This document shows, piece after piece, positions 20,308 to 27,137 of a stretch of DNA of 37,618 nt. The number at the start of each line of letters is the position of its first letter. Position 1 is the stretch's first letter. The DNA lies in assembly GCA_913031625.1 (NCBI GenBank), contig CAJWGB010000023.1:1-37618 (forward strand). The letters are read 5' to 3'. Below the pieces are notes generated by a model. The model saw only the letters and a program-made list of their open reading frames with translations. It had not been told where the DNA came from and searched no databases. The translations under genes and the position numbers were made by a program. The stretch is from an uncultured Planctomycetaceae bacterium. Lineage in GTDB: Bacteria > Planctomycetota > Planctomycetia > Planctomycetales > Planctomycetaceae.

Positions 20308-20991
20308 GTGTGCCACCGCTACAATATCAAAGCTTCAGTCGATGACGTCGTGAAGTTTCTGAGTCCGTTTCAGGTGTCGCTGCCGCCCGACCTGTTGCCG
20401 TCAAAGGACTATTACCCTCTTTATGACGTGCTTGTCCTGAGGATGACGGACGACGAGCAGTGGACGGTTGAGCCTCGATCATGGGGCTTTCTTCCGAAGG
20501 CATGGAAGCCCAGCGACCGGACGCGGACGTCAAAGGCATTTCAGCGAGGCAAGATCAACGCAAGGTCTGAAACGGTTCATTCGACATGGCCCTGGCGATT
20601 CGCCTTTCCTTCTCAGCGCTGCGTGATGCTGGCCAGTAGTTTTTATGAACCGTCGATTCACGGTGGTGACACACGCTATGAAGTCCCCGGACATAGCGTC
20701 TTTGCGATAGCAGGTTTGTGGGACGAATATGAGGGGGACGATGGGAAGGGAAACGAACAGTCAGTCTCTTCCTGTGTGATGCTGACGACGGATGCCAATC
20801 CCCTCGTTGCCTCCACTCGCAAAGGACGCATGCGTCAGCCTGTTCTGCTGACTGATCCGGAAGCTATTCAGAGGTACTGTTCGCTGGAAGTGCGGGAACA
20901 CGACCACGTCAGCGACCTGTTCACCCCATGGCCGGATGCACAGATGACGTGCGAAGAACCTGCCGCACAGAAGGGGCTGTTCGAGCAATAA
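20308..20991 (+). CDS. SRAP-family protein (YedK/HMCES-like), divergent active site
   Basis: Protein of 227 residues. The start must be the GTG at 20308, because SRAP proteins need Cys at position 2 after Met removal and the protein begins MCHRYN. In this family Cys2 forms a covalent thiazolidine with abasic sites in single-stranded DNA. Other conserved features are NARSETV (Asn84), RCVMLASSFYEPS (Glu114), FAIAGLWDE and TTDANPLVAS. The normal IHDRMPV segment reads RKGRMRQPV here, so the catalytic histidine appears replaced by Lys172 and the loop is lengthened. It may still shield abasic DNA but could be changed in crosslink reversal. It follows a PQQ-like gene by 7 bases, with no functional link evident. 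Confidence 0.85.
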   Translation: MCHRYNIKASVDDVVKFLSPFQVSLPPDLLPSKDYYPLYDVLVLRMTDDEQWTVEPRSWGFLPKAWKPSDRTRTSKAFQRGKINARSETVHSTWPWRFAFPSQRCVMLASSFYEPSIHGGDTRYEVPGHSVFAIAGLWDEYEGDDGKGNEQSVSSCVMLTTDANPLVASTRKGRMRQPVLLTDPEAIQRYCSLEVREHDHVSDLFTPWPDAQMTCEEPAAQKGLFEQ

Positions 20992-21030
20992 TTCCTCTGT
21001 GATACACAGGGCTTTCACTTCAATGTGGAT

Positions 21031-21050
21031 GGGCGGTCAGGAGACCGCCC
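21031..21050. repeat. GC-rich hairpin between convergent genes
   Basis: GGGCGGTC and GACCGCCC form an 8-bp perfect stem with a four-base AGGA loop. It lies 40 bases after the SRAP stop, ahead of the convergent cytochrome gene end. There is no U-tract on either side. It could act as a transcript-end stabiliser, a weak terminator or a REP-like repeat. Confidence 0.55.
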
Positions 21051-21065
21051 CACAACAAGTGGCTC

Positions 21066-21151
21066 CTCTGTGATTCTCCGTGCTCTCTGTGGTGAATCTT
21101 CTGGCGTTCATTGAGTCCAGTTCACCACAGAGAGCACGGAGAATCACAGAG
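21066..21151. repeat. 31-bp perfect inverted repeat with 24-base loop (CACAGAGA family, copy 1)
   Basis: The arm at 21066-21096 is exactly reverse-complementary to 21121-21151, around a 24-base loop. The arms are rich in the CACAGAG pattern. It lies between convergent genes and could form a long transcript hairpin in either direction. A related, shorter copy lies at 27086-27137 with the same loop length and a shared CGTTCA in the loop. Confidence 0.85.
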
Positions 21152-21199
21152 AAAGCACAGAGAGGTGGGGGCACTCGTAATCCCACATTGTCCCGAACT

Positions 21200-23017
21200 C
21201 TATTGTCCGCCGCTTCGAAGGAATGCGGCTCCCATTTGAGCGGCGCTGCTGCCGTATGCTGTCTGGATTGCCTGCCCTGAATTACGAGCGGTCTGCAGCG
21301 TACGAACATATTGTGCGAGTTTCGGCATGCCGCCGTTGCGAATGAGGTATTGCGTCAGCAGATAGCCAACTGGTCCGACTTCGTCCGGTGAGAAAGTCCC
21401 GTCGTCAAACAGAGTCGCCGGGTTTGTGACGGTTCGCAGTGCTTCGCCGGCAGTCTGAGGAATCGCCTGGAACAGCGCGGATGTCTTGCTGGCTTTGGAT
21501 TCCATCAGCCCGAACCCCTGTTGCAGCCAGTCCGGCATGTTGGTTCCATTGCGGGCGAGGTAAGCCTGAGCCAGCATGGAATTCACCAGTTTTTCGGTGG
21601 CCAGAGTGTATTCGTTTCCTTCGTCACCTACGTCATGCATTGCCACATAGGCTTCACCAAAACTGTTGGTGACTCGAGCGTGTCCGGAGACGCTGCGAGG
21701 AGTTCTTCGATTCATCAGAATTGTGTTGAACTCTTCGTAATCAAAACGGTCTTTGGTCACGAAGACAATTAGTCGACCTCTCCATGCCTTTTGTCCGTTT
21801 GGCAGTCTGTACTTGCCTGTCAAAGCTGTTACCTGGGCTTCACCCCATTCTGCAATCTGATCGAGGCGAGACTGAGGCAGGTTGCCATAGACGTAAAGGT
21901 TGTCGGAAGTTGATGACCGTGTTTCTTCGCGAGGAGCAATTCGCTTCCATGTCGTTTCCGCCTGTTCAATTCGGCGGGCATTAAAGTCCGCATTACTCAT
22001 GGCAGCCAGTTTGGCGGCTTCCATTTCCTCCTCGGTTGGCACAAGGCTTCGGAGTGTGGCTTTGGGATCACCTCCGTCGAATTTAGCGCCTTCCTTAATC
22101 CATGTTTCCAGAGCGACAGCCTGAGATCGTTTGATCCGCACCTGATTGCCCTGAGGCATCTTGATCGGGTCCTGTCGCAGGACAAGGTCGACGATATAGC
22201 TGTTGTCCGGATCACCCGGCACGATTGTGCTGCCCGAATCTCCCTCAGTCAGCAGCTGTTCGAATGTTGTGATGTTGTAGCCACCACGCGGGTTGTTTCC
22301 GCTGTGGCAGTTCAGGCAGACATTGACCATCCATGGTGCTACGTCTTCCTTGAATGAGACAGTCTCGGTTCCATCCGCTTCCACGACCTTGACGGGTTTC
22401 TTGGGAGGGACGGTGGACTGACCAATTTCCGCATTGCGATCTTTGCCGTCAAAACGCGCTCCCTGAGCAACCCAGCGGCCGATGACGTTGATCTCGTCGT
22501 CGGACAGTTTCGTCGCACTCTTTGGCATGCGGGCGGCGGCATCTTCTGTCATCAGCCGGGCCATCAGCAAACTGCGCTGAGGATTGCCGGGGACAAGCAG
22601 AGCACCGTTTGCTCCGCCGCGGCCCATGTTGGCAAAAGTGTTCAGGCGTAGGTTTGCGCGGGGATTATTCTGACCGTGACACCGCAGGCATTTTGCTTTG
22701 AAGATGCTGGCCACTTCGCGTTCAAAGCTGACAGGAATGGCTGCCTTCGCACGGGCAACAGCAGACATGAGTGAACGGTAAGTGCGATCCTTTTCTTCCG
22801 GGTCGATCTCAAACTCGGCGATCTTGTCTTCCACTTTCTTGATCAGGGCTTTTGCTTCGTCGACTTCCTTCTTGCGAATCATGGTTGTGACGCCACGAAT
22901 TTCACGTGAAAGCGTCAGCAACTCCTTGCGGACCTCTGGTGGAATCGCTGCGCGGCATTCTGCCACAAATGACACGACAAACAGGACAAGCAGCGAAAGA
23001 CGAAGATTGGATCGCAT
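21200..23017 (-). CDS. Secreted two-heme cytochrome c domain protein fused to a peptidase-like domain
   Basis: Protein of 605 residues with a signal peptide (about 1-23). A helical segment (30-95) is followed by two cytochrome c modules of the planctomycete type: CLRCH at 110-114 with a probable axial Met164 (ARMPKSA), and CLNCH at 234-238 with a probable axial Met287 (IKMPQG). Both modules share a repeated core (NPRANLRL / NPRGGYNI). The C-terminal ~240 residues resemble an M1/MA-clan zinc peptidase scaffold (ATEKLVNSMLAQAYLARNG, then PDWLQQGFGLMES), but the HExxH position reads NSMLAQ, so zinc catalysis is not expected. It would act in the periplasm. Its partner proteins are unknown; the nearest upstream gene is a CoA ligase 220 bases away. 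Confidence 0.75.
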   Translation of the reverse strand: MRSNLRLSLLVLFVVSFVAECRAAIPPEVRKELLTLSREIRGVTTMIRKKEVDEAKALIKKVEDKIAEFEIDPEEKDRTYRSLMSAVARAKAAIPVSFEREVASIFKAKCLRCHGQNNPRANLRLNTFANMGRGGANGALLVPGNPQRSLLMARLMTEDAAARMPKSATKLSDDEINVIGRWVAQGARFDGKDRNAEIGQSTVPPKKPVKVVEADGTETVSFKEDVAPWMVNVCLNCHSGNNPRGGYNITTFEQLLTEGDSGSTIVPGDPDNSYIVDLVLRQDPIKMPQGNQVRIKRSQAVALETWIKEGAKFDGGDPKATLRSLVPTEEEMEAAKLAAMSNADFNARRIEQAETTWKRIAPREETRSSTSDNLYVYGNLPQSRLDQIAEWGEAQVTALTGKYRLPNGQKAWRGRLIVFVTKDRFDYEEFNTILMNRRTPRSVSGHARVTNSFGEAYVAMHDVGDEGNEYTLATEKLVNSMLAQAYLARNGTNMPDWLQQGFGLMESKASKTSALFQAIPQTAGEALRTVTNPATLFDDGTFSPDEVGPVGYLLTQYLIRNGGMPKLAQYVRTLQTARNSGQAIQTAYGSSAAQMGAAFLRSGGQ

Positions 23018-27085: not shown

Positions 27086-27137
27086 TCTCTGTGGTGAACA
27101 TCCACGTTCAGGGAATCAGGACAGTTCATCACAGAGG
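27086..27137. repeat. Inverted repeat of CACAGAGA family, copy 2
   Basis: TCTCTGTGGTGAAC (27086-27099) pairs with GTTCATCACAGAGG (27124-27137), with two imperfect positions, around a 24-base loop. It lies between the DUF1501 and DUF1552 genes, both on the minus strand, and may end or stabilise the DUF1501 transcript. It is related to copy 1 at 21066-21151. Confidence 0.7.

Follow-up and report, generated by a model that had tools for sequence, protein, structure and literature searches.

We found that the hairpin at positions 21066–21151 of the window (the whole 37,618-nucleotide stretch of DNA which was analysed, from an uncultured Planctomycetaceae bacterium) is built from spaced arrays of a 7-base word, and that arrays of this kind bracket genes of the GxxExxY family. 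The word and spacing are specific to the lineage of the gene, matching arrays are dispersed through the genomes in intergenic locations, and the gene with its flanking arrays (the cassette) is present at a place in some species and absent from it in others. We consider it likely that the window hairpin is a copy which consists of the ends of a GxxExxY element and lacks the gene, and which would be recognised and spread by the nuclease that this gene encodes.

The arms of the window hairpin (21066–21096 and 21121–21151) are complementary at 31/31 positions around a 24-nt loop (21097–21120) which is not conserved across the family; tool extension of the arms gave 38 nt at 92%. The original prediction of a perfect 31-bp inverted repeat between convergent genes was therefore correct, with an SRAP (SOS response associated peptidase, PF02586) gene on the + strand (20308–20991) and a PSCyt1 planctomycete cytochrome C gene (PF07635) on the − strand (21200–23017). 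The PSCyt1, DUF1501 and DUF1552 domains in the window suggest a planctomycete, and the two named relatives found were Planctomycetaceae and Fuerstiella MAGs. In the direction away from the loop, both arms read TTCACCACAGAG AG CACGGAG AAT CACAGAG, in which repeats of a 7-base word are separated by 2 and then 3 bases; arm 1 carries this on the − strand and arm 2, its exact inverted copy, on the + strand. The third CACAGAG unit of arm 2 is followed, after a 4-base spacer, by a fourth unit at 21156–21162 (the two together spanning 21145–21162, + strand). A lone CTCTGTG unit 3 bases past the SRAP stop forms a small hairpin (CTCTGTG-ATA-CACAGGG, 20995–21011) and is probably a decayed array unit. Folded as RNA, the window hairpin had an energy of −75.9 kcal/mol on the + strand (z = −10.1) and −76.3 kcal/mol on the − strand (z = −11.1), with 0/200 shuffles as good in either case, so it is not a chance structure. 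A known RNA family was ruled out, as Rfam gave 0 matches in the window at the gathering score.

The original prediction proposed a genome-wide search with the arm and a mapping of the copies to gene ends. Against the 6.7-Mb genome from which the window comes (G000), the hairpin region gave 85 BLAST matches, and a search for adjacent CACAGAG pairs (an array being directional, for example TTCACCACAGAG nn CACAGAG nnn CACAGAG) gave 83 matches, compared with 0 for the reversed pattern. After many, though not all, of the match places had been fetched, these resolved into at least 39 distinct array sites, none of which (0/39) lies within a gene predicted by codon-usage ORF calls, while 89% of the window is predicted to be coding. 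The predicted further copies of a REP-like family are thus borne out as a dispersed, extragenic and probably mobile set of arrays. All 39 sites are extragenic (20 between codirectional genes, 14 convergent, 3 divergent and 2 at contig edges). The bias towards convergent over divergent placement, judged against the window, was not significant (P = 0.09). By the strict pattern, 24 sites are single arrays, 13 are pairs of the window type with ACC ends facing the loop and 2 are pairs in the opposite orientation, although a second, decayed arm is present at some of the singles, such as L011 and L017. It was also observed that pairs printed from genomes G254, G004, G115, G185 and G189 have their ACC ends outside, in contrast to the window's genome, where they face the loop in 13 of 15 pairs.

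A related copy about 6 kb from the window hairpin had been reported in the original prediction, together with an exact 24-base loop containing CGTTCA as a trait common to both copies. The second copy is present (27087–27136, with arms at 27087–27099 and 27124–27136) and is a decayed relative of the window hairpin, but it is degenerate, having one recognisable unit per arm and a weak fold (z = −2.8, 2/200 shuffles as good), and it is not counted among the 39 sites. The common loop did not hold up. That of the second copy comes to 24 bases only if one more base is assigned to the arm than in the first copy; when both copies are set in one register, the loop lengths are 24 and 26 bases, and the offset of CGTTCA is 8 in one copy and 6 in the other. 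Among the 13 pairs with facing ACC ends in this genome, 18–35 bases of differing sequence separate the matched arms, and CGTTCA was found by eye in only one, which is the window copy itself. Because loop length and sequence vary between sites, the repeating unit is the arm and not the loop, and a conserved loop was ruled out as a functional element. The features conserved in the family are the 7-base word, the 2-then-3-base spacing and a C ahead of the first unit.

It had been suggested that the hairpin might be a bidirectional transcript end. A bidirectional terminator or mRNA-stabilising hairpin, with its copies produced by ordinary duplication, would agree with the high stability on both strands, the position between convergent genes and the convergent placement of 14 of the 37 placed sites. 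However, neither arm of the window hairpin is followed by a T-run, 24/39 sites are single by the strict pattern (some with a decayed second arm), the convergent bias reached only P = 0.09, and gene-specific words bracketing one gene family would be left unexplained. A terminator scan of 20900–21300, limited to loops of 3–8 bases and so blind to the window hairpin, gave one terminator-like site, the small hairpin at 20995–21011. We found no positive evidence for a transcript end at the window hairpin and regard this explanation as highly unlikely.

The original prediction also named a RAYT-type transposase as a possible partner and proposed to search for it. If this were the case, the array pairs would be REPINs moved by a RAYT (an HUH Y1 transposase) encoded elsewhere, and GxxExxY would be a passenger. 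The arrays do occur as extragenic singlets and inverted doublets able to fold, like the REPINs described in PMC3116915, and the search found one Y1_Tnp (RAYT-type) gene in the 96% complete genome (C185:5943-6248). Nevertheless, the 3.3-kb locus of this gene lacks an array and has just one CACAGAG, at a distance of about 1.3 kb, and the GTAG/CGTC tags of REP ends (as defined in PMC3733652), counted on either strand within 14 bp of array ends, occurred at 8/39 sites versus 10.7 expected at random places. The array-less Y1 locus and the lack of a tag excess rule out a RAYT partner in this genome. The gene that tracks the array word is GxxExxY, and we consider a RAYT-driven origin very improbable. 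The partner of the arrays is the predicted PD-(D/E)XK nuclease gene which the same arrays bracket, not a transposase.

Two PF13366 (GxxExxY) genes were found in the window's genome. One of them (C138:478-825), encoding 123 aa, has CACAGAG arrays on both sides: the upstream arm reads TTCACCGCAGAG aa CACAGAG agg CACGGAG and is followed after 19 bp by the ATG and 123 codons, while downstream the stop is followed after 1 bp by CTCTGTG ctt CTCTGTG ct CTCCGTG GTGAA. On the outer sides of this cassette lie additional arms which complete pairs of the window type. The second gene is divergent and has no arrays around it (L093, G000:C13:6537-6872).

We then considered 112 Planctomycetota genes, comprising these two and 110 from the best-scoring PF13366 matches among those listed, weak members being left out. 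Inverted arrays on both sides, with at least two units of one word, were found at 85/112 of these genes and in 0/977 control windows drawn from the same loci. A word-free test, in which the 250 bp upstream were locally aligned to the reverse complement of the 250 bp downstream, gave a score of at least 30 for 95/110 scorable genes versus 6/969 control windows, and of at least 40 for 70/110 versus 0/969. When the upstream flank of one gene was aligned to the downstream flank of a gene from another genome, 95/1084 draws reached 30, as is expected if words recur. It should be noted that the first 30 loci and the two genes from the window's genome had been inspected by eye before the score was devised. 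Of the 80 later genes, 79 were scorable, and after the removal of three already known to be flanked (G130:C207, G254:C88 and G012:C10) the score was passed by 64 of the remaining 76. The alignment signature was lacking at 15/110 genes and the two-sided array at 27/112, including the divergent gene above, and a high score does not always represent an array (that of L195 is a purine-rich match). Across the phylum, PF13366 is patchy and occurs in about half of the genomes (139/294), and CACAGAG arrays were found by pattern search in 53/294, with 0 matches to the reversed pattern. A PF13366 gene was present in 46 of these 53 array genomes compared with 93 of the 241 others (P = 7e−11), leaving 7/53 array genomes without a PF13366 match.

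The flanked protein from the window's genome is a clear member of its family (TIGR04256, 136.7 bits against a cut-off of 35; PF13366, 134 bits against 22). In 80 aligned GxxExxY proteins, residues G22, G24, E27, Y30, D67, E77, K79 and F109 are invariant and Q91 and Y95 nearly so; the pattern of D67, E77, K79 and E27 we take to be a RecB-type PD-(D/E)XK active site. An AlphaFold2 model (pLDDT 97.2) was matched best by VIA-align to the Cas4 protein SSO0001 (Z = 10.0 over 98 residues), the only match to stand out above a band from Z 7.5 downwards which contained HJC, restriction enzymes and others. Archaeal HJC, at Z 7.1, may reflect a common arrangement only. With Foldseek no structure reached E ≤ 0.001, the same Cas4 coming closest at 1.4e−3, and a PDB sequence search gave nothing significant. 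PADLOC and PHROGs gave weak matches, mostly to nucleases, those from PADLOC including Cas4 (best E = 0.007) and PDC-M36A (best E = 1.4e−4), and a phage search with the protein itself as query gave no match. Judging from the model, GxxExxY is a PD-(D/E)XK nuclease with a Cas4/RecB-like fold and predicted nuclease activity.

The 7-base word differs between genes and includes CACAGAG, CGCAGAT, CACGAAA, CATGAAG, CGCCAAG and others; the calls for 91 genes gave 23 different top words, a few of these being shifted or off-frame script calls. The words are nevertheless alike, mostly of the form C-R-C-N-R-A-N, and a C stands ahead of the first unit in 139/170 arms. On the protein tree (a quick tree built from 117 columns, in which 15 of 109 branches are starred) the word changes 48 times versus 65.7 times in shuffles (0/300 as low). 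Base 7 of the word needed 6 changes versus 26.1 shuffled, base 4 22 versus 30.8 and base 5 18 versus 24.7 (0/200 each), and bases 2, 3 and 6 were not significant. For 18 genomes with at least two labelled genes, the genome label changed 31 times on the tree, versus 31.3 at random, while the word changed 25 times versus 28.4 (0/200). On the tree, then, it is the word and not the genome label that is ordered, and the word therefore goes with the protein rather than with the host, although such agreement could arise simply from flanks travelling with the gene.

We also counted dispersed arrays of five words in 18 genomes, 14 of which were chosen by the word of their gene and four of which have no PF13366 match; the counts sum both strands and include the arrays of the cassettes themselves. 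CACAGAG gave 83 matches in G000, 86 in G254, 22 in G193 and 9 in G204, for which it is the own word, and elsewhere 147 in G185, 18 in G142, 8 in G127, 6 in G262, 5 in G104, 1 in G181 and 0 in the others. For CGCAGAT the own-word genomes had 294 (G185), 20 (G262) and 7 (G098) matches, with 41 in G127, 4 in G142, 2 in G283, 1 each in G000, G238 and G271 and 0 in the others. CACGAAA was found 108, 93 and 51 times in its own-word genomes G238, G181 and G069 and at most twice in the other 15 (2 each in G193 and G204, 1 each in G104 and G024, 0 in the others). CATGAAG was found 52 and 51 times in its own-word genomes G142 and G127 and at most once in the other 16 (1 each in G238 and G104, 0 in the others). 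CGCCAAG had 184 matches in G185, 82 in G271 and 10 in G104, its own-word genomes, and 6 each in G193 and G204, 3 in G254, 2 in G262, 1 each in G127, G181, G137 and G098 and 0 in the others. The own words of two genomes are weak cases: G127 falls below the labelling threshold and its word was taken by eye, and the gene of G104 fails the alignment score (22). Reversed-pattern controls gave 0–2 matches per genome and strand, and the four genomes without PF13366 gave 0–2 per word. The excess of CACAGAG in G185 and of CGCAGAT in G127 may possibly be due to further GxxExxY genes in those genomes; the cross-talk words were absent at two genes read in G142 and one in G127.

With regard to how a word might be read, Thr at residue 7 of the protein goes with G at base 5 in 45/47 Thr rows, and Ala, Val or Cys with A at base 5 in 15/16. 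This association was seen in L092 466–834 and in alignment A1. Coupling was not supported by a tree-corrected residue-base test (P = 0.5–1), which was underpowered, as supported branches provided no more than 7 independent pairs. Residue 7 is thus a possible specificity position and a lead, for which kinship could account.

Arrays typically contain about three copies of the word, with spacers of 1–3 bases. Between the two arms of one cassette (n = 85 cassettes) spacer length was equal in 147/149 comparisons, compared with 583/1132 between genomes of the same word, and spacer letters agreed in 167/270 versus 398/995, a share which 3/1000 within-word shuffles reached. In the 15 pairs from the window's genome, spacer letters agreed in 16/25 cases versus 1147/3253 between sites, and the window copy is one of two pairs with identical spacers at both positions. 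A 2,3 spacing, which is that of the arms at this genome's flanked gene, was found in 27/36 three-unit arrays of this genome with the cassette and 25/33 without it, while in G254, G004, G185 and G130 all 25 of the 25 arrays read, including cassette arms, have a 2,2 spacing. Spacing which is kept while spacer letters drift would be the pattern of a protein binding site. A simple minisatellite, in which a 9-bp unit grew by slipped-strand events without any enzyme, would explain why the number of units varies (up to eight in L079), but hardly the inverted pairs, the agreement of spacer lengths within a pair (147/149), the C ahead of the first unit in 139/170 arms or the presence of one word at many unlinked places per genome, and we give this explanation almost no credence.

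Flanked GxxExxY genes were also found outside the Planctomycetota, in Bacteroidota and Gemmatimonadota. A tblastn search with the protein from the window's genome found 8 plasmid or chromid records. Arm scores exceeded the largest control (in brackets) for Gemmatirosa at 110 (54), Bernardetia at 36 (23) and Bacteroides at 45 (23), and were no better than controls for Sphingomonas at 24 (24) and Treponema at 22 (24), despite which the words CACGCGAAG and ACACGGATT are still visible in these two. The scores for Prevotella at 22 (21), Fusobacteria at 13 (25) and Persicobacter at 18 (26) showed nothing convincing. Both IMG/VR matches are flanked, with scores of 48 and 47 given without control windows.

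Of 210 pairs compared at ≥ 62% protein identity, most had no flanking ORF in common, and L099 and L102, from two genera of one family, have 86% identical proteins and a single 47-aa flank match in common. Some close homologues do have common flanking genes (L132, L138 and L145; L097 and L100), and hence not every copy moves often. Separately, L102 (G193) and L169 (G204) lie between the same flanking genes (76–78% identical) with GxxExxY proteins which are 63% identical; given that L102 and L099 are 86% identical, the gene at this site may have been replaced in place. Between radA and the FAD protein gene, Bacteroides finegoldii has a cassette, Parabacteroides distasonis has 13 bases and no cassette and Phocaeicola massiliensis has another ORF; Sphingomonas parapaucimobilis has a cassette between fabD and fabG where S. 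paeninsulae has none. These presences and absences are between different species, with no near-identical empty site, and exact ends and duplications are therefore unreadable. At loci compared between different species only, no excision product or target-site duplication was seen. With respect to the features which define MITEs and transposon ends, inverted repeats are present at the cassettes, and the cassette-less places compared are all from other species. In seven same-genus genomes, the 4.2–4.6 kb around the homologue of the window's PSCyt1 gene had no CACAGAG array, and this gene therefore has no conserved site beside it. Both SRAP and PSCyt1 were matched in four of these genomes, where the two matches were far from each other or on separate contigs; the other three had the PSCyt1 match only.

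The arrays could instead be binding or target sites through which the nuclease serves a host function (self-recognition, repair or regulation), with the gene placed between arrays so that it can regulate or protect itself by way of them, in which case they would not be mobile ends. That protein and word go together, that active-site residues are invariant, that the arrays lie outside genes (of the 37 placed sites, 14 are convergent and 3 divergent) and far outnumber the GxxExxY genes, and the weak PADLOC matches to Cas4 and PDC-M36A described above would all suit such a role. Set against this are the patchiness of PF13366 (139/294 genomes), the lack of an array beside the PSCyt1 homologue in the seven same-genus genomes, and the lack of common flanking ORFs in L099/L102 and most of the 210 pairs, which means that no constant partner gene is seen. 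We regard a host function as unlikely, although less so than the other alternatives.

In the mobile-element explanation which we prefer, an autonomous form would consist of a single small PD-(D/E)XK nuclease gene, GxxExxY, with an array on each side, the two being inverted, and a non-autonomous form of two facing array ends without the gene, as in the window hairpin. Each nuclease lineage would recognise an array with its own word and spacing and would cut at or near its cognate arrays, or process their hairpins, as a result of which arrays, and occasionally the gene cassette, would be copied into new intergenic places, either by double-strand-break repair between arrays or through a single-stranded hairpin intermediate. 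Gene-less arrays would be by-products of nuclease action, REPIN/RAYT-like in outline with an unrelated enzyme. We infer the recognition, cutting, mobility and copying route of the arrays from sequence data, in which indirect support suggests recognition, the invariant catalytic residues suggest cleavage and the distribution suggests transposition. On balance, we lean towards the broader view that these are widespread minimal mobile elements whose end repeats are spread by their own 120-aa Cas4/RecB-like nuclease and not by a transposase.

Nucleases of the Cas4, RecB-type and Hjc families typically have CRISPR, helicase or recombinase partners. GxxExxY resembles them in fold and catalytic residues (SSO0001 Z 10.0; HJC Z 7.1) but is only 120 aa long and is bracketed by arrays. 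Homing endonuclease genes are single nuclease genes without a transposase, which cut an empty site and copy themselves by repair. A lone nuclease gene and plausible spread through break repair are features in common with these, whereas here there are many gene-less copies of the site and the gene lies between two inverted sites. REP/REPIN-RAYT systems, as presented in PMC3116915, similarly combine short, dispersed extragenic singlets and inverted doublets with a dedicated gene; the gene here is a predicted PD-(D/E)XK nuclease and not an HUH Y1 transposase, and the repeat is a spaced array of a gene-specific 7-base word with no GTAG/CGTC excess. The MITEs of Porphyromonas gingivalis are likewise non-autonomous inverted-repeat DNA with tandem units, but there the minisatellite is inside the element (PMC4596501), while here the arrays are the ends. 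The gene belongs to GxxExxY/PDDEXK_3 (TIGR04256, PF13366), a family named by its motif only, and two open-licence PMC papers name it in passages which say nothing of a repeat. No description of a coupling between GxxExxY and arrays was found among the matches listed from the open-licence PMC literature. Periodic repeats, chiefly tandem heptamers, with no known function in many prokaryotes are described in PMC6344855, and we do not treat them as the same thing as the spaced arrays.

The proteins called GxxExxY have no known function, and a tie to dispersed repeats would give them a substrate and a testable role. The coupling would explain a class of unannotated hairpins and provide a REPIN-like system based on an unrelated nuclease. 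If the explanation is true, several kinds of short spaced repeats in environmental bacterial genomes would be accounted for at once, and the family would form a series, provided by nature, of nucleases whose differing DNA specificities can be read. Should the enzyme indeed read its word, the twenty or so words seen would stand for natural specificity variants, ready for use, of a very small nuclease.

Two further array structures were observed. In L079 (G004:C43), at 2039–2220, one arm has eight units while the printed sister copies have two or three, which indicates that arrays expand. In L084 (G185:C6:30000-32503), at 2089–2349, arrays of the CGCAGAT type lie inside a CACAGAG pair, so that one element family is nested in another, in a genome which has three abundant words (147, 294 and 184 matches).
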